Of a stretch of 47,722 nt of DNA, positions 18,079 to 34,841 are shown piece after piece (the stretch's first letter is position 1; every line of letters starts with the position of its first letter). Origin of the DNA: Acidimicrobiia bacterium (lineage in GTDB: Bacteria > Actinomycetota > Acidimicrobiia > Spongiisociales > UBA5794); the NCBI GenBank assembly GCA_030066875.1, contig JASJAS010000033.1:1-47722 (forward strand), given 5' to 3'. The position numbers and the translations under genes were made by a program. The notes under the pieces were generated by a model. The model saw only the letters and a program-made list of their open reading frames with translations. It made no database searches and was not told where the DNA came from.

Positions 18079-19485
18079 ATGGAAACACAATATGACCTGC
18101 TTCTCAGCGGCGGAACAGTTCTCACGCTCGATTCTCAGCGGAGGGTGATCGAACCTGGCACCGTTGCGGTTAGCGGCAATCGCATCGCCGCGGTGGGTGC
18201 GTCCGCTGAATTCGAAGGCGCTTCTGCAACGCGCACCATCGACTGCACAGGGTCTGCGGTGATTCCTGGGTTTGTGGATTGCCACGACCACATGGAGCAA
18301 GGGATTGTCAAAGGCCTCGGCGAAGGCGAAGCGGTGTGGGAGTGGCTGACCACACTCATCTTCCCTTTGGGAGATGCGATGACGGTTGAGGAGGCGGTTG
18401 CCGCCACCCGCTATGCCGCGTTCGAAGCCGTTCGCGCCGGAATCACCTGCGTGATGAACAACCAGTACTTGCCGTGGGACGCCGAGACAACGGACGCCGT
18501 GGCCAAAGCAATGGAATCCGTCGGGCTACGTGGCGTCGTCGCCCGAGGGATGACCGGCACACCTCCGCCCGCCATGGCACACCGCGGGGACGACGCCCGA
18601 CCCTGGACGTACAGCACTGCCGAAGAGTTGCAGATCATGCGCGATCTTCTCGACAACTGGTCCCCCGACCGGCTGATTCGGCTATGGCCCGGACCAAACA
18701 ACCTCGTCTTCAACGACCAGGAACTGATTCGCGGCTGTGCTGAGTTGGCTCGGGAATACGGCACCAAGTGGCATACCCATTGCTGCGAAGCGCAGCAAGA
18801 TCCGGACATATACAAGAAGACCTACGGCATGAGCCCGGTGAAGTGGCTGAATGAAGCGGGTCTGCTGGGTCCGGAGACGACGCTGGCGCACACCATTTGG
18901 GTCTCGGACGAGGACATCGAGATGCTCGCCGCTTCCGGTGCGGCCGCTGCGCACAATCCGGTCTGCAATATGTATATCGCCTCGGGCGCGATGCGGCTGG
19001 GCCAATTCCTCGAGGCCGGAGTCACTGTTGGTCTCGGCATCGACGGTCCCTGTGTCGGCCACCGGATGGATCCCTTCGAGGCGATGAAACAGACCGTGTT
19101 GTTGCAGCGCCTCGACACCCTCGACCCGGCAGCTAGCCGGAGCGAAACGGCCCTCGAGCTTGGCACCCGCGGCGGTGCGGCCTTTACCGGATTCGAAATC
19201 GGATCGCTCGAGGAAGGGCGTCTGGCCGACATAGCTGTCGTCGACCTCACGGCTCCACATTGCGGACCTCGACCCAGGGCTGTGTCCGCAGTCGTCAACT
19301 CGGCAGGACCTCGGGATGTCACCACCGTGGTCATCGACGGCAGGGTCATCGTGGATGACGGCCGGTGCGTGACCATCGATGAGGCTGAGGTGGCGGCGGA
19401 GGCTGCGGCCGCGATGGAGAGCGTGGCTCGGAAGGCCGGTCTCGATCACTACCTAGAACCATGGCTCGACCCGTCACGGAACTAG
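18079..19485 (+). CDS. amidohydrolase of the AtzA/TrzN/MtaD (deaminase) type
   Basis: This metal-dependent hydrolase family removes amino or chloro groups from N-heterocycles (guanine, S-adenosylhomocysteine, triazines and others). The 468-residue protein has an N-terminal composite beta domain (DLLLSGGTVLTLD), metal ligands in GFVDCHDHMEQG, TKWHTHCCEAQQD, LAHTIWVSDEDIEML, and VGLGIDGPCVGHRMDPFEA. The GIDGP Asp is the catalytic metal ligand. I start it at ATG 18079: a -10 box ends only six bases upstream and there is no ribosome binding site, so the mRNA is probably leaderless. The substrate cannot be named. It shares its operator with the MtmB operon and the binding-protein genes, suggesting that it acts on the same compound class. 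Confidence 0.88.
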   Translation: METQYDLLLSGGTVLTLDSQRRVIEPGTVAVSGNRIAAVGASAEFEGASATRTIDCTGSAVIPGFVDCHDHMEQGIVKGLGEGEAVWEWLTTLIFPLGDAMTVEEAVAATRYAAFEAVRAGITCVMNNQYLPWDAETTDAVAKAMESVGLRGVVARGMTGTPPPAMAHRGDDARPWTYSTAEELQIMRDLLDNWSPDRLIRLWPGPNNLVFNDQELIRGCAELAREYGTKWHTHCCEAQQDPDIYKKTYGMSPVKWLNEAGLLGPETTLAHTIWVSDEDIEMLAASGAAAAHNPVCNMYIASGAMRLGQFLEAGVTVGLGIDGPCVGHRMDPFEAMKQTVLLQRLDTLDPAASRSETALELGTRGGAAFTGFEIGSLEEGRLADIAVVDLTAPHCGPRPRAVSAVVNSAGPRDVTTVVIDGRVIVDDGRCVTIDEAEVAAEAAAAMESVARKAGLDHYLEPWLDPSRN

Positions 19486-19533: not shown

Positions 19534-19636
19534 GCACCGTGGCGGAACGGCGAGGGCTATGCAACGGGACAACGATTTGCTGCGTTGATTGCATGCTGCC
19601 CCCACAACCGGCCGCATGTCGATGAAGGGAATCCAG

Positions 19637-20773
19637 ATGACCAGAACCACGATCAAGTGGGCCACAATCGGTGTCGCACTCGCGATGCTTTTTGCGGCCT
19701 GCGGGGACGACACAACTGATACAACTCAGGCGGCTACCACTGCCGCACCGGAGACAACGGCCGCCGAGACGACGGCCGCACCAACAACCGCGGCCGATAC
19801 GGAAACCACCGCGGCGCCCGAGACAACCGCAGCCCCGACTGGGCCAACCGCGTTGAGCGCTGCCCTCATCAGTGACACGGTCGCTGAAGAACCATGGAAC
19901 GCCGTGATGCTGGATGCGTGGGGCCGGGTGCAGGCCGCCAAACCCAACGGGCTAGACATCACATACGAACTGTTCGAGGAGATCAACCTCGCGGATGTCG
20001 AACGAATTGCACGCGAGCTAGCGCTGTCCGGCAACTACGACATGATCTGGTTCCACGGTTCTGGGGCCGAGGCGATCGAGGCCATTCGCGATGAGTTCCC
20101 GGACCTCATCATGCCCTTCTCCGGCTCGGGGAACACGCCCACCGGCGGTCCAGCGTATTGGTACGACGTGTGGCTTCATGAACCGGCATACCTCACGGGG
20201 ATCGCGGCCGGCATGATGACCGAGACGAACAAGGTGGGTGCCGTCGCCGCCTTCCCGTTCCCGAATGTGAATCTTCCGTTGAACGCCTTCATCGCCGGTG
20301 CGCAGTCGGTGAATCCTGATGTCGAAGCCGTCGCCACCTACATCGAGTCTTGGTTCGATCCGGCGAAGGCCAAGGACTCGGCTTCAGCTCAGATCGCCGC
20401 CGGCGCAGACGCCATCTATGCCGAGCGATTCGGACCCTTTGACGCGGCGGTAGAGGCCGGCGACGTCATCGCTGTCGGTCATTTCTCCGATCAGACCGCG
20501 CTGGCACCCGACATTGCGATCGCCAGCACGCTCGCCCTGTGGGATCCTTCGATCGAGCATGCGATCGGTATCTGGTTGGACCACATGATCAACGGCACTC
20601 CCTACGACGCTCCGCTGGAGCGGCACATCTTCTCGATGGCTGAAGGTGGTGCAGGATTGGTGCTCAACGAGGCGATCATCCCCGATGATGTCCTCGCCGC
20701 GATACAGGAAGCCCAAGACAAGATCATGAGCGGTGAGCTCGCCGTCGAGGCCAACGAAGCGCCTATCGAGTGA
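19637..20773 (+). CDS. BMP/PnrA-family ABC substrate-binding lipoprotein 1
   Basis: This 378-residue extracytoplasmic binding protein belongs to the basic membrane protein family, whose characterised members bind purine nucleosides. The signal peptide ends in the lipobox LFAAC and is followed by a Thr/Ala/Glu-rich linker of about 50 residues. The family signature ESWFDPAKAKDSASAQIAAG, then GADAIYAERFG, is present. ATG 19637 has GAAGGGA six bases upstream. The protein is closely similar to binding protein 2 (for example shared WFDPAKAK, TETNK and AFPFPN/SFPFPN blocks). It is followed by a terminator-like hairpin and MtmB paralogue 4. The ligand is unknown; the family points to a nucleoside-like compound. 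Confidence 0.9.
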   Translation: MTRTTIKWATIGVALAMLFAACGDDTTDTTQAATTAAPETTAAETTAAPTTAADTETTAAPETTAAPTGPTALSAALISDTVAEEPWNAVMLDAWGRVQAAKPNGLDITYELFEEINLADVERIARELALSGNYDMIWFHGSGAEAIEAIRDEFPDLIMPFSGSGNTPTGGPAYWYDVWLHEPAYLTGIAAGMMTETNKVGAVAAFPFPNVNLPLNAFIAGAQSVNPDVEAVATYIESWFDPAKAKDSASAQIAAGADAIYAERFGPFDAAVEAGDVIAVGHFSDQTALAPDIAIASTLALWDPSIEHAIGIWLDHMINGTPYDAPLERHIFSMAEGGAGLVLNEAIIPDDVLAAIQEAQDKIMSGELAVEANEAPIE

Positions 20774-20875: not shown

Positions 20876-22276
20876 ATGGCAAACGCGACTCCGTCCGGGC
20901 TCGACTATTTCTTGTCCGTTCTCGACAGAGCTGAAAGCGGGCCTGTTGTTACAGAGAAGGAGTGGGATCGGGTCTATGTGAACCGCACCGTCCAAGACCT
21001 CGTCGACCGGTATGACATTGCGTTCGATCGCGACAATGTTGGTGTTCCGGCCGATGACGCATTGGCGGACCGGCTCTTCGAGGCCGGAATGGAACTGGCA
21101 ACCAGTAGCGGCGTCTTCTGCCTCGAAACCCAGCGGCGCATCACCTTCAAACGCGACGAGCTGGACGACGTGCTTGCCGCGGTCCCAGAAGAAGTTGCGG
21201 TCGGTCACGACGAAGAAGAACTCATGCTCAGGAAACGCTCCGTCGACGGAGCAGGCAGTATTGCCTTCGGCGGCGGGCCGTGGGGCATTGCCATAGGCGA
21301 GGAACAGTTTCTGCCGCTCGCCCTTGCATATGTCAAAGAGCCACTGATTGACTTCTTCTGCACTCCGTCGCTGACATCGACCTACGGGCGGCCGATACGG
21401 GCTCGCGCGCCATCGGATGCTTTGGCCTGCTGGCAGGAAACGCGACTTACGCAAGAGGCTCTAAGGCAAGCGGGCCGGCCTGGAATGGCCGTGTGCGCGC
21501 CCAACACCACAGCTTCGGCAATCGGGGTCCTTACGACGGTATCCCACGACGGATTGCGCCCCCGCAATTGGCACAACAACTCGTTCGTCAGTGAACTCAA
21601 GGTCTCCTACGAAGATCTCCTGCGAACTGCTCACTTCCTCCATGTCGGTGCCACAGTGCACAACTTCTACAACTCGATATTCGGCGGCTATGCCGGCGGT
21701 GCCGAAGGCACCGCGATCGTGCACGTGGCGTCGTTCGTTCTGATGCGAGCTGTGCTGCAGGGGCACTTCTTCAACACGGGCACCAGCCATGCCCACCTGT
21801 CGGCCAACACCCTCCCGCTCTTGATCCACAGCCAGTCCGCCGGCTATCAGGCTCTGAGTCGGAACACGAACCTAACCCTGGCCAACTTCACGCGCCCGCT
21901 CGCCGGGCCCGGAGAGCGACAATTGCTAGACGAAGTCGCCGCCTACCAGATCGCAACGATCCCGGCCGGCGTTGAGGTTGCCAAGGGGGTGCAGACCGCA
22001 ACCGGCCGGTTTGAGGGTCACTGCTCGCCACTCGAAGCCCGCTTCGCCGCTCAAGTGGCCCGGGCAAGTGTTGGAATGACGCGGTCCGACGCCCACGGTC
22101 TCGTGCAGAGGTTGACAGCCCGCTATGAGGCCGACGCGAATGACGTCAAACCCGGGCGACCATTTGACCAGGTGTATGACCTCGACGAGTTGCAACCAAC
22201 GGCGGATTGGCAAGGAACCTACGAAGCGGCGTGCGCCGAGCTATCGGCTCTGGGGCTCGGTGTCTCACCAAGCTGA
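20876..22276 (+). CDS. MtmB-family methyltransferase with Cys at the pyrrolysine position, paralogue 4
   Basis: This 466-residue MtmB homologue forms its own subgroup. It keeps more of the archaeal active-site neighbourhood than the others: RPGMAVCAPNTTASAIGVL lines up with the MtmB stretch around Pyl202, and residue 207, encoded TGC at 21494-21496, is Cys where MtmB has Pyl. The following Pro, Thr and Ser-Ala positions also correspond. Other landmarks are VVTEKEWDRVYVN, SELKVSYEDLLRT, IFGGYAGGAEGTAIVHVASF (close to FGGYAGGIEETTIVDVA of MtmB) and GRPFDQVYDLDELQPTADW. AAGGAGC precedes the ATG. The gene is followed 39 bases later by a GcvT-like gene, which suggests a demethylase and methyl-acceptor pair. 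The substrate is unknown. Confidence 0.88.
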   Translation: MANATPSGLDYFLSVLDRAESGPVVTEKEWDRVYVNRTVQDLVDRYDIAFDRDNVGVPADDALADRLFEAGMELATSSGVFCLETQRRITFKRDELDDVLAAVPEEVAVGHDEEELMLRKRSVDGAGSIAFGGGPWGIAIGEEQFLPLALAYVKEPLIDFFCTPSLTSTYGRPIRARAPSDALACWQETRLTQEALRQAGRPGMAVCAPNTTASAIGVLTTVSHDGLRPRNWHNNSFVSELKVSYEDLLRTAHFLHVGATVHNFYNSIFGGYAGGAEGTAIVHVASFVLMRAVLQGHFFNTGTSHAHLSANTLPLLIHSQSAGYQALSRNTNLTLANFTRPLAGPGERQLLDEVAAYQIATIPAGVEVAKGVQTATGRFEGHCSPLEARFAAQVARASVGMTRSDAHGLVQRLTARYEADANDVKPGRPFDQVYDLDELQPTADWQGTYEAACAELSALGLGVSPS

Positions 22277-22315: not shown

Positions 22316-23551
22316 ATGAGCAAAGACTATGACCCAAGTGTCTTCATCGGGACGATGTTCAATGAGCGGACTGCCCGGCTCAACCAGGCGGCACGGTGGA
22401 TCGGCTGGGATCGATTCCATATGCCCGAGGTGTTCGTTGGCTTCGAGATCGAGGTCGACGCCATCCACAACGGAGTCATGCTCGAGGACAAATCACCGCT
22501 GACGAAGTACTCGTTCTCCGGACCAGATGCGCAGCGCCTCCTAGACCACCTGGTGCCTCGAGACATCACAAAGATCGAGGTGAACCACGTCTTCTACACC
22601 CCTTGGTGTGACGAGCGCGGCAAGCTGATAATCGACAACCCGGTCTTTCGGCTGGATGACGACACCTATGTCAACATCGGTGATCCCCTGGACCTGTGGC
22701 TCGCCGAGCGATCGGCCGGTTTCGACGTGCAGATCGACGACGTTTCAGACAGCTTTGGGATTCTTGCCATGCAGGGCCCAAGGTCACGAGGGGTGCTCGA
22801 GGCCCTCGTCCCGGACGTCGACTGGAAAGCACTCCGATTCGCCCGAGGGCGCCGGGCCACGCTGCCCGGCGGGGCCGAGGTTTATGTGTGGCGACTCGGC
22901 TTCACGGGACAGCCCGGCTACGAGTTCTGGGTACCCAAGGAGGCCGCAGTCGGCGTATACGACGCAATCATGACTGCGGGGGGACCCCTTGGCATTGTTC
23001 CTTGCGGACACAACGCCCAAAACGTGGCACGAGTTGAAGCGGGCATACTGATGCCGGGTCTCGAGTACACGCGCGCCGGGCCGGATTCCGATATTGCGGC
23101 CTACGTCTCAGTGGATGAGGAAGCCTTGTCCTCACCATTTGAGCTGAACCTCGGCCGCTTCATCGACTTCAACAAGCCGGCAGATTTCGTCGGACGCGAG
23201 GCGCTCGCCGAAGAGCAACGACGTGGAAGTGCCCGCAAGCTGGTTGGTCTGGAAATCGATTGGCGCACGATTGAAGAGATGTATCACTCACACAACGCAC
23301 CGGCGGAAGTCTCTCGCAGGATCGACTGGGCACGCTACCCGGTCCGGCATGGAACGCAGCTCGTCGGGCATGCCAGCAGCGTGTGCTGGAGCCCGACCAC
23401 GAAGAAGATGATCGGATTTGGCCAGCTGAAGAAGCAATTCGCCACAGCTGGGACCCAACTCGCGGTGGAATGGACGGCCGAAGGCACCGTCGGCGAAGCG
23501 ACCGCCATCGTGGTCGATCTACCTTTCGTACCCGACCGACGGCGAGCTTGA
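22316..23551 (+). CDS. GcvT-like (aminomethyltransferase family) protein 1
   Basis: This 411-residue protein belongs to the T-protein/DmdA/LigM superfamily, whose members pass one-carbon groups to tetrahydrofolate. Visible landmarks are DKSPLTKYSFSGPDAQRLLD, DERGKLIIDNPVFRLDDDTY (matching the GGIVDDL region, with the catalytic-type Asp kept), FGILAMQGPRSRGVLE, LGFTGQPGYEFWVP (matching GYTGExGxE, Glu replaced by Gln) and NVARVEAGILMPGLEYT. The C-terminal barrel ends with PVRHGTQLVGHASSVCWSP. No glycine-cleavage H or P protein is near, so a glycine-cleavage role is unlikely. It directly follows MtmB paralogue 4, and a paralogue of it directly follows another MtmB gene. I infer methyl transfer from a methyl-corrinoid or substrate to tetrahydrofolate. 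AAGGAGGA precedes the ATG. Confidence 0.87.
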   Translation: MSKDYDPSVFIGTMFNERTARLNQAARWIGWDRFHMPEVFVGFEIEVDAIHNGVMLEDKSPLTKYSFSGPDAQRLLDHLVPRDITKIEVNHVFYTPWCDERGKLIIDNPVFRLDDDTYVNIGDPLDLWLAERSAGFDVQIDDVSDSFGILAMQGPRSRGVLEALVPDVDWKALRFARGRRATLPGGAEVYVWRLGFTGQPGYEFWVPKEAAVGVYDAIMTAGGPLGIVPCGHNAQNVARVEAGILMPGLEYTRAGPDSDIAAYVSVDEEALSSPFELNLGRFIDFNKPADFVGREALAEEQRRGSARKLVGLEIDWRTIEEMYHSHNAPAEVSRRIDWARYPVRHGTQLVGHASSVCWSPTTKKMIGFGQLKKQFATAGTQLAVEWTAEGTVGEATAIVVDLPFVPDRRRA

Positions 23552-23630
23552 CAGAGCTCCGGAGGCGACCCGCGACCCTGCTGACTCATCGCGGCTTCGC
23601 CCTTGATGCCCTTGCGACGGTGATAGACAT

Positions 23631-23664
23631 TTGCGCCAGGACTAGTTTGCATGTAATGTGCAAA
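23631..23664 (+). promoter_or_regulatory. promoter with 17-bp operator (site 3)
   Basis: TTGCGC (23631-23636), 17 bases and TAATGT (23654-23659) precede the second binding-protein gene. The dyad TTTGCATGTAATGTGCAAA at 23646-23664 has perfect six-base outer arms and covers the -10 box, as at site 2. Confidence 0.7.
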
Positions 23665-23690
23665 ATGCAACCCCTAAGGAGGGATTCAAG

Positions 23691-24821
23691 GTGAAAAGCT
23701 CGAAATTCCTAATAGCCCTCATCGCCCTCGCAGTGCTGTTTGCTGCGTGCGGAGATGACGCCGACGACACCACCGCTGAGACGACAGAAGCTGCCGAGAC
23801 GACGGCGGCTCCGGAGACCACGGCCAGTACCGAGACGACTGCTGCCGAAACCACGGCTGCTCCAGAGACAACTGAGGCGATGGCCGCACCCGAGGAGGTG
23901 AACGTCGCCCTGGTTAGCACCACAGTTCGTGAGGAGCCATGGAACCTCGTGATGTTGGCCGCCTGGGATCGCGTCGCGGCCACCAGTCCGCACGGTATGT
24001 CCGTGTCGCTCGAGTTCTTCGAGTCGATCGCTCATCCCGACGGGGAGCGGGTGGCTCGGGACCTAGCGGTCTCCGGCAAGTACGACATCATCTGGATGCA
24101 CGAGACGTTCTCCGAGGCTGTCGAAGCGATCAAGGACGAGTTCCCGGACATCCTGTTTGCATACACCGGCGCCGGAAACCATGGAGTTGGCGGGAGCGCG
24201 TATTGGTTCAACACGTTCCTGCATGAGCCCGCCTATGTCGCCGGCGCTGCCGCAGGCTTGATGACAGAGACCAACAAGATCGGCGTGGTAGCCAGCTTCC
24301 CGTTCCCGAACATCAACACTGTGCTCAACGGTTTCATCGACGGTGCGAAGTCGGTCAACCCAGATGCCGAGATCGAGGCGACCTACATCGAGAGCTGGTT
24401 CGATCCGGCCAAGGCCAAGGAATCTGCGTCGGCACAGATCGCCGCCGGTGCCGACGTCATTTACGCCGAGAGATTTGGACCGTTCGACGCAGTCGTCGAG
24501 AACGAAGGAGTGCTGGCGGTCGGCCACTACTCCGACCAGGAGTCACTGGCACCCGAGGTGGTGATCACGAGCCCGCTCGTGCTGTGGGATCCGGCGATCA
24601 ACCTGATGATCGACGTGTGGTACGACTACGTAGTGAACGGCACCCCGTACAACGCCCCGGCCGAAGAGGTCTTTTTCCTCATGCCGGAGGGTGGCGGGGA
24701 CATCGCACCGCTCAACGAAGCAGTCGTCCCAGCGGACGTTGTTGCGCAGGTCAACGAGATTCGCGACGGGATCTTGAGCGGCGACATCGTTGTGACCCCC
24801 AACGAAGCCCCCGTCGAGTAG
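23691..24821 (+). CDS. BMP/PnrA-family ABC substrate-binding lipoprotein 2
   Basis: This 376-residue lipoprotein is the close paralogue of binding protein 1. It has the signal peptide with lipobox LFAAC, a Thr/Glu/Ala-rich linker, then VNVALVSTTVREEPWNLVML, GMMTETNK-like GLMTETNKIG, and the family signature ESWFDPAKAKESASAQIAAG. GTG 23691 was chosen because AAGGAGGG lies seven bases upstream and the signal peptide begins there. It has its own promoter and operator and is followed by a strong hairpin, so it can be expressed on its own. Divergence from protein 1 is concentrated outside the shared hinge motifs, which would allow a different ligand in the same transporter. Confidence 0.9.
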   Translation: MKSSKFLIALIALAVLFAACGDDADDTTAETTEAAETTAAPETTASTETTAAETTAAPETTEAMAAPEEVNVALVSTTVREEPWNLVMLAAWDRVAATSPHGMSVSLEFFESIAHPDGERVARDLAVSGKYDIIWMHETFSEAVEAIKDEFPDILFAYTGAGNHGVGGSAYWFNTFLHEPAYVAGAAAGLMTETNKIGVVASFPFPNINTVLNGFIDGAKSVNPDAEIEATYIESWFDPAKAKESASAQIAAGADVIYAERFGPFDAVVENEGVLAVGHYSDQESLAPEVVITSPLVLWDPAINLMIDVWYDYVVNGTPYNAPAEEVFFLMPEGGGDIAPLNEAVVPADVVAQVNEIRDGILSGDIVVTPNEAPVE

Positions 24822-24843
24822 GCGAACCAACACCGGAATGCGA

Positions 24844-24869
24844 AGCGGAGCCCAGTCTCGGGCTCCGCT
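24844..24869 (+). terminator. 10-bp perfect hairpin after binding protein 2
   Basis: Arms AGCGGAGCCC and GGGCTCCGCT surround a six-base loop, 23 bases after the stop codon. A short T-containing tail (CGCTGTTTGCT) follows. It is a good candidate for an intrinsic terminator. Confidence 0.7.
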
Positions 24870-24995
24870 CGCTGTTTGCTAGACCCGCAAGGACTCGATC
24901 TTCGAGCACCCCCAAGACTCGCCTGCCGTTTGCTTCGCGCTGCCAGATGTGTGCTGAACCTTCGTACTGCCGTCCCGATAATCGCACGCAACCTA

Positions 24996-25025
24996 TTGCG
25001 GAGTGCTACACATTGCATGTAAGAT
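24996..25025 (+). promoter_or_regulatory. promoter with 17-bp operator (site 4)
   Basis: TTGCGG (24996-25001), 18 bases and TAAGAT (25020-25025) precede the third binding-protein gene. On the opposite strand the operator reads CTTACATGCAATGTGTAG, almost the same as site 2, and again touches the -10 box. Confidence 0.66.
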
Positions 25026-25091
25026 GTCGCATTAATGGCGGATGCCCATCTTGAATCGCATCCGAAACTGCCCGGGGAGGGAATAGCCGAC

Positions 25092-26255
25092 ATGCGAAGC
25101 CCAAACAATCCGAAGGCCACCCCACGACTCTTCCTGCTGCTGGTGGTGATCAGCCTCATCGCTGCCGCCTGCGGAGACGATGACGACACAGCAACCACGG
25201 CAGCAGCGACCGAAACGACAGCGGCCGAAACCACCGCGGCTAGCGACGAACCCTGTATACGGGTTGGGGTGCTGATCAACCTCGATCGTAACGACGCCGG
25301 ATGGAACGAGGCGCACTATCGCGGCGGCGAGTATCTGCAGGCGCAGATTCCGTGCGCCGAAGTGACGCTCCTCGAGAACATGCACGAGACGCCTGAAACC
25401 GAAGCGGTAATGCGGGACCTTGCCGATGACGGATACGACCTCATCTTTGCCACTTCCTTCGGGCTCATGGAATTCACGCAACGGGTAGCGGCCGACTACC
25501 CCGATGTCATCTTCGAGCATGCGAGTGGCTACCTATCCGCGGAGAACTTCTCGAACTACGTAGGCGCCCAATACGAGGCCGCATACCTTGCAGGGATGGC
25601 AGCCGGAGCGGTGAGTGAGAAGGGCAAGATTGGCTACGTCGGCCCGTTCGCCACTCCAGACGTGTTGCGTGATCTCAACGGTGTCGTTCTCGGTGCTCGG
25701 GAGATGAATCCCGACATCGAAGTACAAATGGTTTGGGTGAGCAGCTGGTTCGACCCTGGACTCGAGACCCAGGCAGCCCAGACCCTGATCGACGACGGGG
25801 CCGACGTACTGTTCTATGGCACCGCGTCTCCGTCCGTTCCGACCGAGGCGGAAGCAGCAGGAATTCACTGGGTAGCCACCAACGGACTTGCCGAGCGGCT
25901 CGCACCTGATTCATTCCTGGCGGGGATCAACTACGAATGGGGTAACTACATGGTCGAGGCAACCCAGGCCGTCATTGACGGGACCTGGGTGTCTGAGCCG
26001 TACTGGGGCACTATGGCCGATGGCTTCATCACGCTCACCTGCTGCGGTCCGGACGTTCCTGCCGACGTCGAGGCTCAAATCAGAGAACGCGAGGAGCAGA
26101 TCAAGGCCGGGGAATTCGACCCGTTCGCCGGACCGCTCGTGAACCAGGCCGGCGAGGTCGTCGTCCCGGAGGGTGAGAGCGGTAGCTCGTTCGATCATGT
26201 CTTCGGTGTTGACTACGTCCTGGAGGGCATCGAGGGAACGGTCCCGAGCGGTTGA
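25092..26255 (+). CDS. BMP/PnrA-family ABC substrate-binding lipoprotein 3
   Basis: This 387-residue lipoprotein is a more distant BMP-family member. The lipobox is LIAAAC, followed by a short acidic and Thr/Ala linker. The family core shows IRVGVLINLDRNDAGWNE, FEHASGYLSAENFSNYVG, EAAYLAGMAAGAVSEKGKIG and VWVSSWFDPGLETQAAQTLI, with GADVLFYGTASP after it. ATG 25092 has GGGGAGGGA nine bases upstream. It is the last binding protein before the ATPase and permeases and could be the original partner of the transporter, with proteins 1 and 2 added later. The ligand is unknown. Two adjacent Cys (about TCCGP near the C-terminus) are unusual. Confidence 0.88.
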   Translation: MRSPNNPKATPRLFLLLVVISLIAAACGDDDDTATTAAATETTAAETTAASDEPCIRVGVLINLDRNDAGWNEAHYRGGEYLQAQIPCAEVTLLENMHETPETEAVMRDLADDGYDLIFATSFGLMEFTQRVAADYPDVIFEHASGYLSAENFSNYVGAQYEAAYLAGMAAGAVSEKGKIGYVGPFATPDVLRDLNGVVLGAREMNPDIEVQMVWVSSWFDPGLETQAAQTLIDDGADVLFYGTASPSVPTEAEAAGIHWVATNGLAERLAPDSFLAGINYEWGNYMVEATQAVIDGTWVSEPYWGTMADGFITLTCCGPDVPADVEAQIREREEQIKAGEFDPFAGPLVNQAGEVVVPEGESGSSFDHVFGVDYVLEGIEGTVPSG

Positions 26256-26292
26256 GTCGCTGGCCTGCGACTTGGCGGCGCCCTTGACTATT

Positions 26293-26327
26293 GTCGCTGT
26301 GCCGATGGCTAGTTTCGGCACAGCGAC
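26293..26327 (+). terminator. 13-bp perfect hairpin between binding protein 3 and the ATPase gene
   Basis: Arms GTCGCTGTGCCGA and TCGGCACAGCGAC enclose a nine-base loop. No T run follows. It probably limits read-through or protects the upstream mRNA, keeping the binding protein in excess over ATPase and permeases. Confidence 0.65.
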
Positions 26328-26364
26328 ATGGGCAGGATGCGGGTGAGAACGTCGTATACAACCA

Positions 26365-27921
26365 ATGACCGCTGAACCGGCAACGCTCGCTGCGGAGATG
26401 ACCGGAATCTCCAAATCGTTCTTCGGCGAGTTCGTTCTGCACAGTGTTGACCTCGACGTACGGCCGGGTGAGGTTCACGCCATTCTCGGTGAGAACGGCG
26501 CCGGCAAGTCAGTCCTTTGCTCGATCCTGGCTGGCCTCTACCGCGCCGACTCGGGCGCCATCGAGATAGCCGGAGAACGCGTTGAGCTGCACTCTCCACA
26601 TGATGGTCTGGCGGCCGGCGTCGGCATGGTCTACCAGGAGTTCCGACTGGTAGACGACCTCACGGTCACCGAAAACGTCGTCTTGGGCGACCCGAGAAAC
26701 CCGGGTCGGATCAACTGGACCGAGGCGCGCGGCCGGGTCGCAGCGGCTGCCGAGCAGCATGGCATCGACACCGACCCCCGTGCCTACGTCGGCGACCTGA
26801 CCGTTGGCGAGCAGCAGAGGATCGAGATCCTGAAGCTGCTTTATCGGGAAGTGGATCTGCTCATCCTCGACGAGCCCACTGCCGTGCTCACGCCCGCTGA
26901 GGTGCGGGTGCTATTCGAGACGATCGAAGGACTCAGGCGAGCCGGCCACGGCATTGTGCTCATCTCACACAAGATCAAGGAGCTGAGGGCGATCGCAGAT
27001 CGCGTGACGGTCATGAGGCTCGGTCATCGCGTCGGAACGTTCGACATGGACACGGTCACTGACGACGAATTGTCTGAACTCATGGTGGGCAAAGAGGTAG
27101 TTACTTCGGAAGTGCCTTCGCGTCCTTCAGCCGGAGCATCGCCCGCATTCGAGGTCGAAGATCTCACCGTTCTCGGCGACTACGGCGGGGTTGCGGTTGA
27201 TTCGTTCGCCATGACGGTGCATCCAGGCGAGATCGTCGGCATAGCCGCCATCGCAGGCAATGGTCAGCACGAACTCGCCGAAGCGCTCGCGGGGCTGCGG
27301 CGCGCCGCCTCGGGAACCATACGTCTCCGAATCTCTGGCGAGCTCGAGACGCTGACGGATATCACAACGGCGACCGTCCGCGAACGGGTCGAGATGGGCA
27401 TTGCCCACATCCCGGAGGATCGCCGCCATGCCGGGATCGCCCCAGGCCTCGGGGTCCCGGAGAACCTGGCGCTCAAGAGCTATTGGCATGCGCCTCTGAG
27501 CAAGCGCAGCATCATCGCCCGGGGAGCAATGCAGAAGCTCGAAAGAGCCCTAAGGGATGATTACGACATCCGAGGCGGTTCGCGAAAACTGCCCGCCAGC
27601 GTGCTCTCCGGCGGCAACATCCAGAAGCTCATCCTCGCCCGTGAGCTGAGTCGCGCGCCGGACCTGGTAATTGCCTCATACCCGACGCGAGGTCTCGACC
27701 TTGGCGCCGTTGCCAACGTCAGAGAGATCCTCTACCGACAGCTTGACGATGGGAGCGCCATCGTGCTGTTCTCGGAGGACCTCGATGAACTCTTCTTGAT
27801 GTCGCACCGCCTCCTCGTCCTATTCGACGGCAAGGTCATGGCCGAGTTCCGGCACGGCGATTACAACCGTGAGGTCATCGGGGCGCTGATGGCCGGGCGG
27901 TCCGCGGAGGAGCAGGGATGA
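26365..27921 (+). CDS. nucleoside-type ABC transporter ATPase with two nucleotide-binding domains
   Basis: This 518-residue cytoplasmic ATPase has the tandem arrangement of the NupA/RbsA class. Domain 1 has Walker A GENGAGKS, signature LTVGEQQRIEI and Walker B LLILDEPTAVLTP. Domain 2 (from about residue 255) has a degenerate Walker A (AAIAGNGQHELAEAL, no Lys), an intact signature LSGGNIQKLILARE, and ASYPTRGLD where the catalytic Glu is missing. That asymmetry is normal for the class. The stop overlaps permease 1 (ATGA). There is no strong ribosome binding site; a TATACA lies four bases before the ATG, so a leaderless start is possible. It should energise uptake for all three BMP proteins. Confidence 0.92.
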   Translation: MTAEPATLAAEMTGISKSFFGEFVLHSVDLDVRPGEVHAILGENGAGKSVLCSILAGLYRADSGAIEIAGERVELHSPHDGLAAGVGMVYQEFRLVDDLTVTENVVLGDPRNPGRINWTEARGRVAAAAEQHGIDTDPRAYVGDLTVGEQQRIEILKLLYREVDLLILDEPTAVLTPAEVRVLFETIEGLRRAGHGIVLISHKIKELRAIADRVTVMRLGHRVGTFDMDTVTDDELSELMVGKEVVTSEVPSRPSAGASPAFEVEDLTVLGDYGGVAVDSFAMTVHPGEIVGIAAIAGNGQHELAEALAGLRRAASGTIRLRISGELETLTDITTATVRERVEMGIAHIPEDRRHAGIAPGLGVPENLALKSYWHAPLSKRSIIARGAMQKLERALRDDYDIRGGSRKLPASVLSGGNIQKLILARELSRAPDLVIASYPTRGLDLGAVANVREILYRQLDDGSAIVLFSEDLDELFLMSHRLLVLFDGKVMAEFRHGDYNREVIGALMAGRSAEEQG

Positions 27922-29048
27922 TCCTGCCATCGAACCTTGCCGTCGAGAAGAAGGTTGCACCCTCTCTCTGGTTCTCGGCCTCGCTGCCCATACTGTCGGT
28001 ACTCGCCAGCCTCGTTCTTGCAGCCGTTCCCCTGCTGCTCGTTGGAGAGAGTCCGCTCGAGGTCTACCGGGTCATGGCCAAGGCATCGGCCGGTAGCGTT
28101 GCCGCCCTCACCGACACGCTCACCGAAGCTACACCGATCCTCCTCACTGGTCTTGCGGCCGTCATCGCATTCCGGGCCAAGGTATGGAACATCGGCGCCG
28201 AAGGTCAGCTCCTCGTCGGCGCCATTGCCGCCGCCGGCGTGGGACTAGTCCTTCCCGAGGGAACGAGCCCGCTCATCGCCATCATCGGCATGATGCTCTC
28301 CGGTGTTGTCGCAGGTGCGGTCTTTGCCAGCTTGGCCGCAGTGCCGCTGGCAACTTGGAACGCCAACGAGATCGTGATGACGCTGATGCTGAACTTCATC
28401 GCACTGTCGTTTGTCAACTACCTGATCTGGGGCAGCAGCAGCCTATGGCGTGATGATGGTTTCGCCGCTTTTCCGCGTGGCAAGCTGATCCCTGAGGTCT
28501 TCCGACTGCCCGAGCTGACCGGGCGCCTCAACGCGGGTTTCGTGATCGCGGTGCTTGCGGCCGTCGTATTTGCCTGGTTCATGAGGTTCACCACGTGGGG
28601 ATATGAGTATTCCGTCGTCGGTGATTCACGGACAACTGCACGGTATGCCGGGATCGGGGAACGGCGCATCGTCATCAGCACGTTCCTGCTCTCGGGGGCT
28701 GCAGCAGGTCTCGCCGGAGCCGTGCTCATCAGCGGGACCGTTGGCGGACTCGAGCCTCGCTCCCTTGCCGTTGGCATCGGGTTCTCCGGGATCCTCGCTG
28801 CAGGGCTCGGCCGGATGTCGCCACTGGGCCTGATCCCCGCCGCGGCGTTCGTGTCGGCCCTCGCCTCGACTGGTCCAGACCTGCAGAGGATTGGTGTCGC
28901 CCCGCCGATCACGATTGCCCTCCAAGGTTTGATCCTCGTAGTCGTTGCAGCAGGCCAGTTCTTCCTCGAGTACCGCGTGGTCATCATCTCGAAGGACGTG
29001 CCCGAGTTGCAGGGGAAGGAGGGTGCCCCATCAACGACTCCATCCTGA
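27918..29048 (+). CDS. ABC transporter permease 1 (nucleoside-uptake, NupB/YufP-like)
   Basis: This 376-residue inner-membrane permease has eight to ten hydrophobic segments. Family landmarks are TPILLTGLAAVIAFRAKVWNIGAEGQLLVGA (split here: TPILLTGLAAVIAF, then KVWNIGAEGQLLVGA), WNANEIVMTLMLNFIA, and SRTTARYAGIGERRIVI near the coupling helix. Such permeases pair with BMP-family binding proteins in nucleoside and related importers. The start overlaps the ATPase stop by four bases. A charged C-terminal tail is followed at once by permease 2. Confidence 0.9.
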   Translation: MILPSNLAVEKKVAPSLWFSASLPILSVLASLVLAAVPLLLVGESPLEVYRVMAKASAGSVAALTDTLTEATPILLTGLAAVIAFRAKVWNIGAEGQLLVGAIAAAGVGLVLPEGTSPLIAIIGMMLSGVVAGAVFASLAAVPLATWNANEIVMTLMLNFIALSFVNYLIWGSSSLWRDDGFAAFPRGKLIPEVFRLPELTGRLNAGFVIAVLAAVVFAWFMRFTTWGYEYSVVGDSRTTARYAGIGERRIVISTFLLSGAAAGLAGAVLISGTVGGLEPRSLAVGIGFSGILAAGLGRMSPLGLIPAAAFVSALASTGPDLQRIGVAPPITIALQGLILVVVAAGQFFLEYRVVIISKDVPELQGKEGAPSTTPS

Positions 29049-29971
29049 TCGACATTGTTGTTGCAGGACTGTTGTTTGGCACGCCCTTGGTGTACGCCGG
29101 CATCGGAGAACTCATCGCACAGCGATCGGGTGTCATGAACCTGTCCATCGAGGGAACCATGTTGATCGGCGGAGTGACCGGGTTCGCCGTGGCCGACATC
29201 ACAGGTTCCGTATGGCTGGCACTGATCGCCGCGGCAATTGCCGGCACCTTGATGTCGGCCATACTCGCTTTCCTCGCCGTCGGTTTGCGCGTGAGCCAGA
29301 TCCTCACCGGTCTCGGCTTGCTCATCTTCGGGACCGGTCTCTCCAGTTTCTTCGGGCTCGTCGGTGAGAACCCGATTGCGCGGCGCCCGCCTACAACATC
29401 GATCGAGCCTTTCTTCACCGGCGGGATTGCCGATATCCCGCTCCTCGGGCCAATCCTGTTCTCGCACGACTTCGTGGTCTACGGAGGGTGGGTCATCACG
29501 TTCGCCGCGTACGTGCTTCTGTACCGAACCGACTGGGGCCTCCGCATCCGAGCCGTCGGCACTGACCCCGCGAGCGCAGAGGCGTCCGGTGTATCGGTCT
29601 CGTGGGTGCGATCTCTGTCGGTGCTGGCCGGCGGTGGGTTGGCGGGCACAGGCGGGGCCTACCTCTCGGTTGGGCTCGTGAAAGCCTGGCAAGACGGGCT
29701 GACGGCTGGCGCCGGGTGGCTGGCGTTCGCCATCGTGATTGCCGTTCGATGGCGACCGCTGCTGCTCCTCGCCGCCGCTTTCATCTTCGGAGCGTCCATC
29801 CGGCTCGGTTTCACGCTACAGGTGGTTGGAGCCGACGTGTCTCCCGAGCTACTCAGCATGATCCCGTATGCCCTGGCGATCGTCGCGGTCCTCTACGCTG
29901 CGGCGAGCTCATCTCGCAACGTCACCGAACCGAAAGCGCTCGGCTTCCCATTCTTCCGCGAAGAGCGGTGA
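29030..29971 (+). CDS. ABC transporter permease 2 (nucleoside-uptake, NupC/YufQ-like); non-canonical start
   Basis: This is the second membrane subunit, about 313 residues, with FGTPLVYAGIGELIAQRSGVM, then NLSIEGTMLIGG, GTDPASAEASGVSVSWVR, and a C-terminal PYALAIVAVLYAA. The usual family N-terminus, of the form M-N-D-S-x-L-I, appears here as INDSILIDIVVAGLLF, with ATC at 29030 where ATG would be expected. A strong AAGGAGGG lies six bases before that ATC. I therefore place the start at 29030. The first standard start in frame is TTG at 29072, which has no ribosome binding site and would cut into the first helix. The gene overlaps the end of permease 1 by 19 bases. Confidence 0.85.
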   Translation: MNDSILIDIVVAGLLFGTPLVYAGIGELIAQRSGVMNLSIEGTMLIGGVTGFAVADITGSVWLALIAAAIAGTLMSAILAFLAVGLRVSQILTGLGLLIFGTGLSSFFGLVGENPIARRPPTTSIEPFFTGGIADIPLLGPILFSHDFVVYGGWVITFAAYVLLYRTDWGLRIRAVGTDPASAEASGVSVSWVRSLSVLAGGGLAGTGGAYLSVGLVKAWQDGLTAGAGWLAFAIVIAVRWRPLLLLAAAFIFGASIRLGFTLQVVGADVSPELLSMIPYALAIVAVLYAAASSSRNVTEPKALGFPFFREER

Positions 29972-29998
29972 TCGGCAGCGCGGGTGCGACTGAGAGTC

Positions 29999-31234
29999 TC
30001 AGCCCGAGTACATGCGGGTGCGGTCAACAAACGGCACTCTGACAACGGTGGCCGCAACCGGGCCATGCTCGCCTTCGGCTTCCCACTCAACGCTTAGTCG
30101 TGTTCCGCGGTCTGCCATCCCTCTGTTGATTTGACCCAACCCGATCAGCCTCCTGAGGTTGGGGCTCCAGCATACGCTGGAGGCGGTCCCGACACGGCGG
30201 CCTTCGTGCATGACGGGGAGTCGCTCCCATCGGATGCGTCGCGAGACTTCCGGTGGCAGACCCGCTTCTTCGTAGATGGCAACCACATCCGTCCAATCGA
30301 GCTCGAGACCGGTGAATGCTCGTGGTGGCCCACCTGTCGCCTGCTCGTCGAGCAGCGCCTGCTTCCCCACGAAGTCGGCCTGCTTGTCGAGATCGACGAA
30401 CTTCCCTAGCCCTAGCTCGTAGGGTGACAGGATTGCTTCGTCGGAAGTGGTCTCGTATGGGGCGACTTGGGTCGAAGGGTCTGCGCTCATGTAGTCGATG
30501 CCGGGGATCAGAAACCCAGCTTCAACCCGAGCAACGTTTACCGCGTTGAGGGCCCAGGGCTGAATCCCCAGCGGCTCGCCGGCCTCAATCATCGCATCGA
30601 ACACTGCTGCGGCACCGTCGCTTGGAACCCAGAGCTCGTAGCCGAGCCCGCCCGTGAAACCCAGCCGCCACACGCGAACCTCTACCCCGCCGATCACGGC
30701 CGTGCGCCCACGGGCAAAACGAAGGCCCGACCAGTCCTCGGAAGTCGCAGCCTCCAACACGGCTCGGGAGTTCGGCCCCTGACAAGTGAGTACCCCAAAC
30801 GTGTCTGACACATCTTCGATTTGCACGTCATAGCTCTCGCAATGGCGTGCAAACCAGGTATCCAATCGCGTGCCCGTCGTGCAATAGAGGCTGTCCTCCA
30901 GTCGAAAGACGGGTGAGTCTTCGATCAACTTGCCTTGCTGGTTGCACCAGGCGGTGAACAATGCATGGTCTACGTCGATGCGGTGGATGTCGCGGGTAAT
31001 GAGACTATCGAGCAGCGCTGCGGCATCCGGCCCGGAAATGTAGTACTTGGTCATCGGAGACTTGTCATCGAGCACAGCGGCCTCGCGAACCGCTCGAAGC
31101 TCTGAGTTGAGACCGGCGAAGGCCTCAGGCACGTGGTATCGGTCCCAGGAGACCCAACGCCCCGAATAGTTGTATGGCGCGAACGATGAGGTGAATGGGG
31201 TGCGGTTGAATTCGCCGGGGTCGTAGTTACTCAT
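29999..31234 (-). CDS. GcvT-like (aminomethyltransferase family) protein 2
   Basis: This 411-residue paralogue of the protein at 22316 has the same length and matching blocks: SGRWVSWDRYHVPEAFAGLN, DKSPMTKYYISGPDAAALLD, QQGKLIEDSPVFRLEDSLY (catalytic-type Asp kept), FGVLTCQGPNSRAVLE, LGFTGGLGYELWVP and NVARVEAGFLIPGIDY. It is the last gene of the seven-gene minus-strand operon, 32 bases after MtmB paralogue 5. Because one GcvT-like gene sits behind each separate MtmB locus, I infer that these proteins hand the methyl group to tetrahydrofolate in place of the MtgA-type methyltransferases known from other corrinoid systems. A direct demethylase role, as in DmdA or LigM, is the main alternative. 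Confidence 0.87.
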   Translation of the reverse strand: MSNYDPGEFNRTPFTSSFAPYNYSGRWVSWDRYHVPEAFAGLNSELRAVREAAVLDDKSPMTKYYISGPDAAALLDSLITRDIHRIDVDHALFTAWCNQQGKLIEDSPVFRLEDSLYCTTGTRLDTWFARHCESYDVQIEDVSDTFGVLTCQGPNSRAVLEAATSEDWSGLRFARGRTAVIGGVEVRVWRLGFTGGLGYELWVPSDGAAAVFDAMIEAGEPLGIQPWALNAVNVARVEAGFLIPGIDYMSADPSTQVAPYETTSDEAILSPYELGLGKFVDLDKQADFVGKQALLDEQATGGPPRAFTGLELDWTDVVAIYEEAGLPPEVSRRIRWERLPVMHEGRRVGTASSVCWSPNLRRLIGLGQINRGMADRGTRLSVEWEAEGEHGPVAATVVRVPFVDRTRMYSG

Positions 31235-31266: not shown

Positions 31267-32643
31267 CTACCTGAAGTCGACCCCCCAACTGGCTACCTCC
31301 TCCTTGACCTTGTCGTAGATGCCAAGCCACTCGTCTCTGGGACGAACTCTGGCCACGTCATACAGCTCTTCGAATGGCTTGCCGAACGGTTTGCCATCGA
31401 GTTCAGGCTCATACTCCGCAACCGCCTTCTGTACAACCTCCTCAGCCTGGTCCAGACTCATCCCAGTCACCGCGTGACCGACCTCGCCCATGAAACGAGA
31501 CTCCAAACCGGTGCAGTGGTTCAGGTGAACCCCGGTGGCCGATCGCGGCCCCATTAGGCGCGACGCACCACACACCGTGCCGATCGTCGCCGCAGCAACG
31601 ACCTCATAGAGAAGCGTCTCAGTTCCCGGCCCCGCAAGAGGCGAAATCGGCAGGTCCGTCATCAGTCCGGTGTGGCGCGACAGAGCGAGGTGGGCCGCGC
31701 TCATTGAACGCAGCAGCGGCGGTACAGTGTCCGCAGGTATCAACGGTGTAACGGGGGCGCTGCTATGGGTAGCGGCCATGTACATGAGCTGCATCGCTAC
31801 CAGGCCGGCCACGATGAGGACCGCAATGCCTTCCTCGCCGCCCCCCAGGCCGCCCAGAATCGGGTTGTAGAAGCTCTGGATGACGCCATCTTGACGCACC
31901 GAGTGAGCAACCTTGATCAAGAGGCCGTTGTTGACCTTCATCTCGCTGAACATCGCAATCATGTGCCAGTCGACCGGGCGATAGCCGCCCCTACTGATCG
32001 CAGAGAGATGCCCGACCTCGCTGATCGCCATCGATACGCAGCCGAACGCCATGCCGGGACGTCCCGCCCGACGCGCCGCATCGAAGATCAGGTCTACTTC
32101 CTGCCAAGCCGCCATCACTTCCAAGGCGGATTGGGTGCGGGCCTCCCTGCCATAAGTTGAGTCCAAACAACCGACCCCGGCGGTGTCGACGATCGGTTCC
32201 TGGATGTAGGACTGCATGATCGGTACGAACATGTCCTCACTCAGGGGCGCACCGATCGGTCCGCCAATGATGATCGGTGGGGTGGCATCTTCCACCGCTC
32301 GATAGCGCTCGGTACGAGCGTCGCGGCCCTCGCCGATCACGGCCTCCCACGGAGCCGACGCAAGATACTCCTCGATCTCACGACGAGTGAACACCATGCG
32401 CCGGCCCGTGCTTGTGTTGTATACCCCACAGCTCTCCAGAAAGTCCAGCGACGCATCGAACAACCGATCGATCACCGCATCGTCGCGCTGAATGAATCTG
32501 GAACGGTCAAACCCGATGTCGTACTCTTTCACGACGCGTGCGACTCCCGCTGCCACATGTTTCAGATCGAAATCCCTCTCCTCGCAAGGGGGACCGTCGT
32601 AGGCACGATCAATGATGTCGAGCAATCTTGACTGGTTCCGCAT
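31267..32643 (-). CDS. non-pyrrolysine MtmB-family methyltransferase, paralogue 5
   Basis: This 458-residue protein has exactly the length of archaeal MtmB. It forms a second subgroup with paralogue 6: RAYDGPPCEERDFDLKHV, LESCGVYNTSTGRRMVF, IGGPIGAPLSEDMFVPIM (compare GGPTGSPISEDVFMPVH of MtmB), SEMKVNNGLLIKVAHSV, ILGGLGGGEEGIAVLIVAG and GKPFEELYDVARVRPRDEWL. The pyrrolysine position in AGRPGMAFGCVSMAI is Gly201, followed by Cys202. I start it at ATG 32643, with AGAGAG upstream; the GTG at 32667 lacks a binding site. It follows paralogue 6 by 57 bases and precedes GcvT-like protein 2. Confidence 0.88.
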   Translation of the reverse strand: MRNQSRLLDIIDRAYDGPPCEERDFDLKHVAAGVARVVKEYDIGFDRSRFIQRDDAVIDRLFDASLDFLESCGVYNTSTGRRMVFTRREIEEYLASAPWEAVIGEGRDARTERYRAVEDATPPIIIGGPIGAPLSEDMFVPIMQSYIQEPIVDTAGVGCLDSTYGREARTQSALEVMAAWQEVDLIFDAARRAGRPGMAFGCVSMAISEVGHLSAISRGGYRPVDWHMIAMFSEMKVNNGLLIKVAHSVRQDGVIQSFYNPILGGLGGGEEGIAVLIVAGLVAMQLMYMAATHSSAPVTPLIPADTVPPLLRSMSAAHLALSRHTGLMTDLPISPLAGPGTETLLYEVVAAATIGTVCGASRLMGPRSATGVHLNHCTGLESRFMGEVGHAVTGMSLDQAEEVVQKAVAEYEPELDGKPFGKPFEELYDVARVRPRDEWLGIYDKVKEEVASWGVDFR

Positions 32644-32700
32644 CGGTGTTCTCTCTGTTCCAGCCACGCTTGGATGGGTCGGCTGCGATGGCCGCTCAAG

Positions 32701-34077
32701 TCACCCGAAGTCGACTCCCCAACTGGCTACCTCCTCCTTGACCTCGTCGTAGATGCCGAGCCATTCAGCGTTGGGCCGAACCTTGGCCACGTCATACAGC
32801 TCCGCGAAGGGCTTGCCAAACGGTTTGCCGGTCAATTCGGGCTCGTATCGGGCAACTGCCCTCTGCACGACCTCCTCAGCCTGCTCCCGACTCGTCCCAG
32901 TGACTGCGTGGCCGACTTCACCCATGAAGCGGGCCTCCAAGCCGGTGCAATGATTCAGATGAACCCCGGTGGCCGACCGGGGACCCATCAAACGCGAAGC
33001 ACCACAAACTGTGCCGACGGTTGCCGCAGCAACGACCTCATAGAGAAGCGTCTCTGTTCCCGGGCCGGCTAGTGGAGATATCGGCAGGTCCGTCATCATG
33101 CCCGTATGGCGCGACAAGGCGCTGTGGGCCGCACTCATTGAACGCAGCAGCTGCGGCACGGTATCGGCCGGGATCAAAGGCGTGACAGGGGCGCTGCTGT
33201 GGGTCGCGGCCATATACATGAGTTGCATCGCCATCAGGCCGGCCACGATGAGCACAGCAACACCTTCCTCGCCGCCTCCGAGGCCGCCCAGGATCGGGTT
33301 GTAGAAACTCTGGATGACACCATCGGTCCGTACCGAGTGAGCGACCTTGATCAGAAGGCCGTTGTTGACCTTCATTTCTGAAAACATGGCTATCGAGTGC
33401 CAGTCGACTGGGCGATAGCCACCTCGACTGATCGCCGACAGATGGCCGATCTCGCTGATCGCCATCTGCACACAACCGATCGACATCCCGGGACGTCCCG
33501 CCCGGCGCGCCGCATCAAAGATCAGGTCGACTTCCTGCCAAGCCGCCACCACCTCATACGGAGACTGGGTCCTCGGCTCCCTCCCATAGGTCGAATCCAG
33601 TGTCCCCGGCGTAGTCGTATCGACGATTGGTTCCTGTATATAGGACTGCATGATCGGCACATACATGTCCTCACTGAGGGGTGAGCCGATAGGGGAGCCA
33701 ATGATGGTGGGAGGCCGGGGGTCCTCGACCGACCGGTAGACCTCGGTGTGGGCATCGCGCCCCTCCCCGATTACGGCCTCTTTGGGTGCCGATGCGACGT
33801 ATTCCTTGATCTCGCGGCCTGTGAACAACATCCGTCGGCCGGTGGTGGCGTTGTAGACACCACAGGACTCGAGGAAGTCGAGCGAGGCTTCGAACAGGCG
33901 ATCGATCATGTCATCGTCCCGCTGTATAAACGTGGAACGGTCAAACCCGATGTCGTACTCCTTGACAACGCGCGCCACTCCCGCGGCTACGTGCTTCAGA
34001 TCGAAGTCCCTCTCCTCGCAAGGGGGACCGTCATAGGCACGATCGACAATATCCAAGAGCCTCGACTGATTCTGCAT
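32701..34077 (-). CDS. non-pyrrolysine MtmB-family methyltransferase, paralogue 6
   Basis: This 458-residue protein is very close to paralogue 5, with long identical runs in both halves, so the pair is a recent tandem duplication kept in one operon. The pyrrolysine position in AGRPGMSIGCVQMAI is Gly with Cys following. Differences from paralogue 5 include PGTLDSTYGREPRTQS for VGCLDSTYGREARTQS and MSIGCVQ for MAFGCVS next to the active site, which may tune substrate choice. ATG 34077 has GGAG six bases upstream. The gene lies 58 bases after a corrinoid protein gene, its probable methyl acceptor. Confidence 0.88.
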   Translation of the reverse strand: MQNQSRLLDIVDRAYDGPPCEERDFDLKHVAAGVARVVKEYDIGFDRSTFIQRDDDMIDRLFEASLDFLESCGVYNATTGRRMLFTGREIKEYVASAPKEAVIGEGRDAHTEVYRSVEDPRPPTIIGSPIGSPLSEDMYVPIMQSYIQEPIVDTTTPGTLDSTYGREPRTQSPYEVVAAWQEVDLIFDAARRAGRPGMSIGCVQMAISEIGHLSAISRGGYRPVDWHSIAMFSEMKVNNGLLIKVAHSVRTDGVIQSFYNPILGGLGGGEEGVAVLIVAGLMAMQLMYMAATHSSAPVTPLIPADTVPQLLRSMSAAHSALSRHTGMMTDLPISPLAGPGTETLLYEVVAAATVGTVCGASRLMGPRSATGVHLNHCTGLEARFMGEVGHAVTGTSREQAEEVVQRAVARYEPELTGKPFGKPFAELYDVAKVRPNAEWLGIYDEVKEEVASWGVDFG

Positions 34078-34135
34078 ACCCGACTCCAATCCTCACTACT
34101 GCCTCGGGGCGGTTGTTTGTTCCCAAATCGTGCGG

Positions 34136-34786: not shown

Positions 34787-34841
34787 TGCGGTCTCTCCTC
34801 TCGGACTCCCATCATCTGTCTTGGCCTTCGGCCAGATTGCG

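Follow-up and report, generated by a model that had tools for sequence, protein, structure and literature searches.

Two GcvT-like genes lie directly behind MtmB genes

The stretch of DNA analysed here (the window, 47,722 nucleotides) is contig C110 (JASJAS010000033.1) of an Acidimicrobiia metagenome-assembled genome (MAG; GCA_030066875.1) of 3.16 Mb and 81% completeness. It carries two genes for GcvT-like proteins (GcvTL), each next to an MtmB gene of the non-pyrrolysine (non-Pyl) type, and the function of these two proteins is the subject of this analysis.

20876-22276, + strand: non-Pyl MtmB, ending 39 bp before GcvTL 1 (PF05369, 295 bits)
22316-23551, + strand: GcvTL 1, 411 amino acids (PF01571, 160 bits, plus PF08669)
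29999-31234, - strand: GcvTL 2, 411 amino acids (PF01571, 180 bits, plus PF08669; alignment and tree)
31267-32667, - strand: non-Pyl MtmB, ending 32 bp before GcvTL 2 (PF05369, 341 bits)

Both GcvTL genes are complete open reading frames (ORFs) in which the Pfam scan recognised the GCV_T and GCV_T_C domains (GCV_T E-values of 8e-47 and 9e-53), and GcvTL 2 is about 52% identical to GcvTL 1. The named relatives closest to the pair come from Acidimicrobiia MAGs. As the first-pass annotation of this DNA had claimed, each gene lies directly 3' of an MtmB gene on the same strand, and each MtmB-GcvTL pair is probably transcribed as one operon. The position of Pyl202 in M. barkeri MtmB aligns to C in MtmB 20876 and to G in MtmB 31267, and no stop codon occurs there in either gene.

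The genome contains 11 MtmB genes, seven of them in the window (starting at 12876, 15233, 16630, 20876, 31267, 32701, and 35432) and the rest on contigs C14, C156, and C170; across the class, an MtmB match at E 1e-40 turned up in just 3 of 296 genomes. There are five GcvTL paralogs, namely the window pair and copies on C156, C55, and C138. Two of the five stand immediately behind MtmB, an adjacency that a rough estimate (11 MtmB genes and about 3000 genes assumed) places at a chance probability of about 1e-4, that is, far above chance expectation.

GcvTL proteins form a clade of their own near DmdA and Tdm

The window pair reached no NCBIfam cut-off, nor did the seven scanned relatives of the clade. 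The best-scoring family was Tdm (NF053776; 186-189 bits vs a cut-off of 1100), followed by the best GcvT model (164-170 vs 300), DmdA (NF009133; 107-123 vs 410), and LigM/DesA (NF047885 and NF047633; 69-99 vs 580-800). Tdm was also the best PDB sequence match (9q59 and 9q5a), and the Pfam scan found no flavin adenine dinucleotide oxidase domain of the SoxA/DMGDH/DMGO type in GcvTL.

A scan of genome contigs for GcvTL relatives yielded 79 loci. Loci L027-L056 encode single-domain GcvTL, and most of the remaining loci are frames of about 700-1000 amino acids, the two scanned examples of which (L072 and L099) were Tdm-like at 1062-1098 bits; L089 is a single-domain GcvT. Relatives from L057 on (29-36% identity), mostly of the long two-domain Tdm-like type, served as the outgroup. 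Two trees were built, a careful one of 54 proteins and a quick one of 68. In the former, GcvTL formed one clade (bootstrap/SH-like approximate likelihood ratio test, 94/89) that grouped with DmdA and Tdm at 89/91, and GcvT, DMGDH, SoxA, and LigM each formed a clade of their own outside this group. The sister of GcvTL varied, being Tdm in the 68-protein tree (87) and DmdA in the 54-protein tree (84/71). In the phylogeny that the first-pass annotation had proposed, GcvTL is therefore a separate clade near DmdA and Tdm.

An AlphaFold2 model of GcvTL 1 (pLDDT 91.6), for which the alignment was built without the S. meliloti row, had the B. subtilis GcvT structure 1yx2 as its best PDB match (TMt 0.92) and also matched DmdA, DMGDH, and LigM structures. 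In the alignment with T. maritima GcvT, the tetrahydrofolate (THF)-pocket residues Y83, D96, and E195 were kept in GcvTL as Y94, D107, and E203; among 31 rows, E203 was invariant and D107 and Y94 were nearly so. The GcvT arginine (T. maritima R227) was lost as in DmdA and Tdm, being Q or V in the window pair. In T. maritima GcvT, E195 is the pterin Glu of the pocket.

The shared fold would also suit a glycine-cleavage T-protein of the usual kind or a folate binder without catalytic activity, but we regard this as highly improbable, as the scores fall short of every NCBIfam GcvT cut-off, the proteins lie outside the GcvT clade, and the GcvT arginine is lost. In agreement with the first-pass annotation, no GcvH or GcvP gene was identified in the window; moreover, the genome carries its own GcvH on contig C67, contig C82 encodes what looks like a genuine GcvT joined to SHMT, and none of the five GcvTL paralogs was seen beside GcvH or GcvP. 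The frame on C82 (L026 4758-7034) runs for 759 amino acids to the contig end, and its SHMT part was recognised by eye.

Relatives of GcvTL are linked to importers and Rieske genes

The gene neighbours of 34 other GcvTL loci were counted (the genome's own copies on C156, C55, and C138, the S. meliloti copy, and 30 named loci, near-duplicates included). An ATP-binding cassette (ABC) ATPase was present at 23 loci, a Bmp-type binding protein at 20, a Rieske gene at 19, and XDH-type genes at several. MtmB occurred at one locus, on the genome's own contig C156, and no MtmB-like ORF was found in the flanks of the 79 scanned loci. MtmB was likewise absent from 18 of 18 genomes behind the near GcvTL relatives, and the closest kin of GcvTL 1 (L027 and L028, 65-66% identical) come from genomes without it.

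A first conclusion from this absence of MtmB, that the relatives have no corrinoid donor, was dropped, since MttB was found elsewhere in 17 of 20 GcvTL genomes and a corrinoid-protein match in 20 of 20, some of them in MetH-sized frames. MttB was not found within the GcvTL loci themselves, and the single MttB, at L062, accompanies a protein of the long Tdm-like type. Because most of the relatives' genomes carry MttB and corrinoid proteins elsewhere, the case for GcvTL acting independently of corrinoid is made from gene linkage and the clade.

A conserved string of Bmp, ABC, GcvTL, amidohydrolases, BKACE, Gly_reductase (GrdE-like), GrdB-like, and Rieske genes was observed at L049, L050, and L051, in Microthrix, Planctomycetaceae, and Acidimicrobiales MAGs; the GrdE-like protein was recognised by Pfam, and the GrdB and BKACE names were given by eye.

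A linked MTHFR favours 5-methyl-THF as the product

On pSymA of S. meliloti 1021, a GcvTL gene (45% identical) is followed by genes for MTHFR, a PurU-like formyl transferase, an aminotransferase, a 2-hydroxyacid dehydrogenase, SHMT, Rieske, Bmp, and ABC proteins. In Aminobacter, an MTHFR gene (57% identical) stands behind GcvTL-Bmp-ABC in A. ciceronei, and another lies about 120 bp behind a GcvTL gene in A. anthyllidis. A text search of the literature with guessed S. meliloti locus tags returned no paper. The MTHFR of SYK-6 prefers the oxidation of CH3-THF to CH2-THF and works with a LigM-type demethylase (review, PMC13001107). The solved structure nearest to the GcvTL-linked MTHFR is 7xg9 (3e-40); solved structures of other MTHFRs match at 1e-5 or worse. 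By sequence, the MTHFR beside the Sinorhizobium and Aminobacter GcvTL is apparently of the type that oxidises methyl-THF made by LigM-type demethylases. As an MTHFR is needed after 5-methyl-THF and not after methylene-THF, its presence favours 5-methyl-THF as the GcvTL product.

This bears on a different reaction, in which a partner oxidase such as a Rieske or molybdenum enzyme would hand GcvTL a one-carbon unit already oxidised to an iminium or to formaldehyde, and GcvTL would form 5,10-methylene-THF. The folate domains of Tdm, DMGDH, and sarcosine oxidase work in this way. In its favour, Tdm is one of the groups closest to GcvTL in the trees, such partners could come from the Rieske genes at 19 of the 34 loci or the XDH-type genes at several, and the catalytic-site Asp is retained as in GcvT. 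However, the MTHFR beside the three proteobacterial members would be idle with a methylene-THF product, GcvTL is a standalone protein whereas Tdm, DMGDH, and SoxA are fused, and the window has no recognised Rieske gene. We therefore consider this reaction unlikely, though it deserves serious weight.

The corrinoid route has an MtgA-type partner of its own

No Pterin_bind (MtgA/DHPS) gene was found in the window by Pfam. The first-pass annotation had described MtgA as absent, which is correct for the window and incorrect for the genome. A Pterin_bind search of the genome gave matches only on C18 (291 bits) and C170; the C18 protein was read as DHPS, and the C170 protein passed the NCBIfam cut-off for methyl-THF:corrinoid methyltransferases (NF005719; 301 vs 259 bits). 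On C170, the MtgA-type gene comes directly after an MtmB gene; beyond it lie MetF, Rieske genes, a gene for a corrinoid protein, a further MtmB, and RamA. The first-pass annotation had named a co-regulated MtgA homologue elsewhere in the genome as evidence against its proposal, and this homologue beside MtmB supplies that evidence in part.

A cluster of the same MtmB/MtgA/MetF/RamA type, with most parts 70-90% identical and a MetV-like protein (DUF5981) included, was found in a genome of the same family (G099), in which GcvTL had no match at 1e-60. The MtgA-type protein on C170 and this cluster without GcvTL indicate that a dedicated THF partner serves the MtmB route. A genome of the same order (G053) contains RamA, several MtmB genes, an MtgA-type protein, and four corrinoid proteins. 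It also has a GcvTL 60% identical to the C156 copy; this gene faces a string of corrinoid-protein and MtmB genes head to head and has DUF1638 behind it. Since G053 repeats the MtmB/GcvTL linkage, the coupling of GcvTL to the corrinoid route is real in two genomes, and an MtgA-type protein is present in both. The G053 MtmB cluster also includes an MtaA/CmuA-type methylcobamide methyltransferase (L124 3836-4885; NF004889, 244.3 bits against a cut-off of 244).

The headline of the first-pass annotation was that GcvTL passes the methyl group from a methylated corrinoid protein to THF in place of MtgA. The gaps of 32-39 bp behind MtmB, the head-to-head arrangement in G053, and the window without MtgA would fit this role, but the findings above make it very unlikely: an MtgA-type protein adjoins MtmB in the same genome, the full cluster of G099 does without GcvTL, the G053 cluster includes an MtgA-type protein, the closest relatives (L027 and L028) occur in genomes lacking MtmB, and no MttB was found in the GcvTL loci, with the caveat that most of these genomes have MttB and corrinoid proteins elsewhere. 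A narrower variant is given very little chance, namely that in the MtmB-linked members (window and G053) the T-fold was recruited to take methyl from the corrinoid protein, so that methyl-corrinoid:THF transfer would have two folds, this one and that of the MtgA type.

Other genes of the window

The remaining genes around the two pairs are as follows.

14315-15262, + strand: homocysteine S-methyltransferase, MtgE-like (PF02574, 215 bits; PRK07534, 327 bits, cut-off 338)
18049-19485, + strand: amidohydrolase of the TRZ/ATZ/SsnA group, first gene of the GcvTL 1 string (PF01979, 164 bits)
19589-20773, + strand: Bmp/PnrA-type substrate-binding protein (PF02608, 97 bits)
23658-24821, + strand: Bmp/PnrA-type substrate-binding protein, immediately 3' of GcvTL 1 (sequence likeness to the Bmp genes at 19589 and 25035)
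25035-26255, + strand: Bmp/PnrA-type substrate-binding protein (PF02608, 160 bits)
26365-27921, 27918-29048, and 29072-29971, + strand: ABC importer, ATPase and two permeases (translations; matched beside GcvTL relatives)
32701-34089, - strand: MtmB, second of the tandem in the GcvTL 2 string (PF05369, 346 bits)
34136-34849, - strand: corrinoid protein of the MtgC/MtbC type (PF02310 and PF02607; TIGR02370, 177 bits, below the cut-off of 215)
35432-36832, - strand: additional MtmB (PF05369, 252 bits)
36853-37593, - strand: second corrinoid protein (PF02310 and PF02607; TIGR02370, 171 bits, below the cut-off of 215)

The homocysteine S-methyltransferase gene lies directly 3' of the MtmB gene at 12876-14258, and its product is a candidate corrinoid methyl acceptor inside the window. 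MetH was not seen in the genome (MAG 81% complete), as the only Pterin_bind matches were those on C18 and C170. By analogy with R. pomeroyi (PMC12478193), the 14315-15262 protein, the corrinoid proteins, and the MtgA-type protein of C170 could form a split methionine synthase.

At 38231-44619, a UbiD-family decarboxylase, an Amidohydro_2 protein, and a molybdenum hydroxylase adjoin the corrinoid genes and may point to a substrate that is aromatic or an N-heterocycle. From the amidohydrolase, XDH, UbiD, and Bmp neighbours, we considered N-methylated heterocycles, betaines, and purine-like compounds as substrates, none of which is favoured.

A proposed direct demethylation onto THF in parallel to MtmB

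With moderate confidence, we propose that GcvTL is an uncharacterised clade of THF-dependent demethylases whose members demethylate an imported compound directly, with 5-methyl-THF as product, in parallel to MtmB. The ABC importer with its Bmp-type binding protein would take up a small molecule methylated on N, O, or S, which GcvTL would bind beside THF, moving one methyl group straight to N5 without corrinoid. The adjacent MtmB would move another methyl group, of the same or a sister compound, into the corrinoid protein, from which it would pass to THF via the MtgA-type protein of C170 or to homocysteine via the 14315-15262 protein. Both routes would converge at 5-methyl-THF, which MetF would then oxidise; in the window genome, the MetF on C170 would take the place of a linked MTHFR.

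The gene order, the clade, the kept THF-pocket residues, the neighbours, and the MtgA-type protein elsewhere in the genome were observed. Direct demethylation onto THF, which the first-pass annotation had offered as an alternative, is favoured by the tree, the residues, and the neighbourhood; the new wiring it was to represent is not borne out, since the chemistry is known from DmdA and LigM. We infer the GcvTL reaction and product, a substrate shared with MtmB, and co-transcription.

Several points weigh against this proposal. In the literature searched, no substrate or activity is reported for any GcvTL member, a search on MtmB together with GcvT giving one paper, on an archaeal genome; the Tdm folate domain takes formaldehyde, not a methyl group. 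The support for the DmdA/Tdm/GcvTL grouping is moderate (89/91), and the C138 copy and L027 have E in place of D107. The GcvTL-linked type of MTHFR was not found in the window genome or G053 and accompanies proteobacterial members only. We take 7xg9 to be the SYK-6 enzyme; the match table names no organism. Finally, GcvTL is coupled to the corrinoid route to some extent, as its close pairing with MtmB (window genome) and with a corrinoid protein (G053) shows.

Comparison with known systems

GcvTL appears to be a broad and apparently unstudied folate-dependent demethylase clade, tied to Bmp-type importers and Rieske oxygenases and present in Acidimicrobiia MAGs, rhizobia (S. meliloti 1021 and Aminobacter), and other groups. 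Because it stands beside the corrinoid route in the window genome and G053, one organism may remove methyl groups by both chemistries, and the copy on pSymA makes GcvTL substrates accessible to ordinary genetics in S. meliloti.

On the corrinoid side, the R. pomeroyi MtgB/MtgC/MtgD/MtgE system carries out aerobic corrinoid demethylation with THF and homocysteine as acceptors and includes DUF1638 and RamA (PMC12478193). The window corrinoid and homocysteine proteins and the MtgA-type protein of C170 match its parts by family, but it uses an MttB-family MtgB in place of MtmB, and a text search of that paper found no mention of GcvT. MtgA would fill the place of THF partner in the corrinoid route; however, it has the Pterin_bind (PF00809) fold and not the T-fold of GcvTL. 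According to the published report, MtqB is a non-Pyl MtmB homolog acting on tetramethylammonium and choline, the first of its kind with a shown function (PMC13044021), but it is an enzyme of a methanogen.

Among T-fold proteins, GcvTL resembles DmdA, the dimethylsulfoniopropionate demethylase, in being a single unit of similar size with a THF pocket, in the loss of the GcvT arginine, and in the tree grouping, but it forms its own clade far under the DmdA cut-off and has extra segments near residues 250-270 and 317-340. The C-terminal domain of Tdm, the trimethylamine N-oxide demethylase, is the top family and PDB sequence match and shares the loss of the arginine; however, Tdm has two domains in about 780 amino acids, and GcvTL lacks the N-terminal one and scores below the cut-off. 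With the O-demethylases LigM and DesA, GcvTL shares the T-fold, a THF-dependent methyl transfer (predicted for GcvTL), and the presence, beside its relatives, of an MTHFR that is apparently of the same type, although they are remote in the tree. SAR11 also has GcvT-like proteins of unknown substrate (PMC3160333). THF-dependent demethylation by the T-fold is established for DmdA, LigM, and DesA, as is demethylenation for BrdA/SesA (PMC5547118). The kind of reaction is thus already known, and what is new is the clade and its place in MtmB operons.

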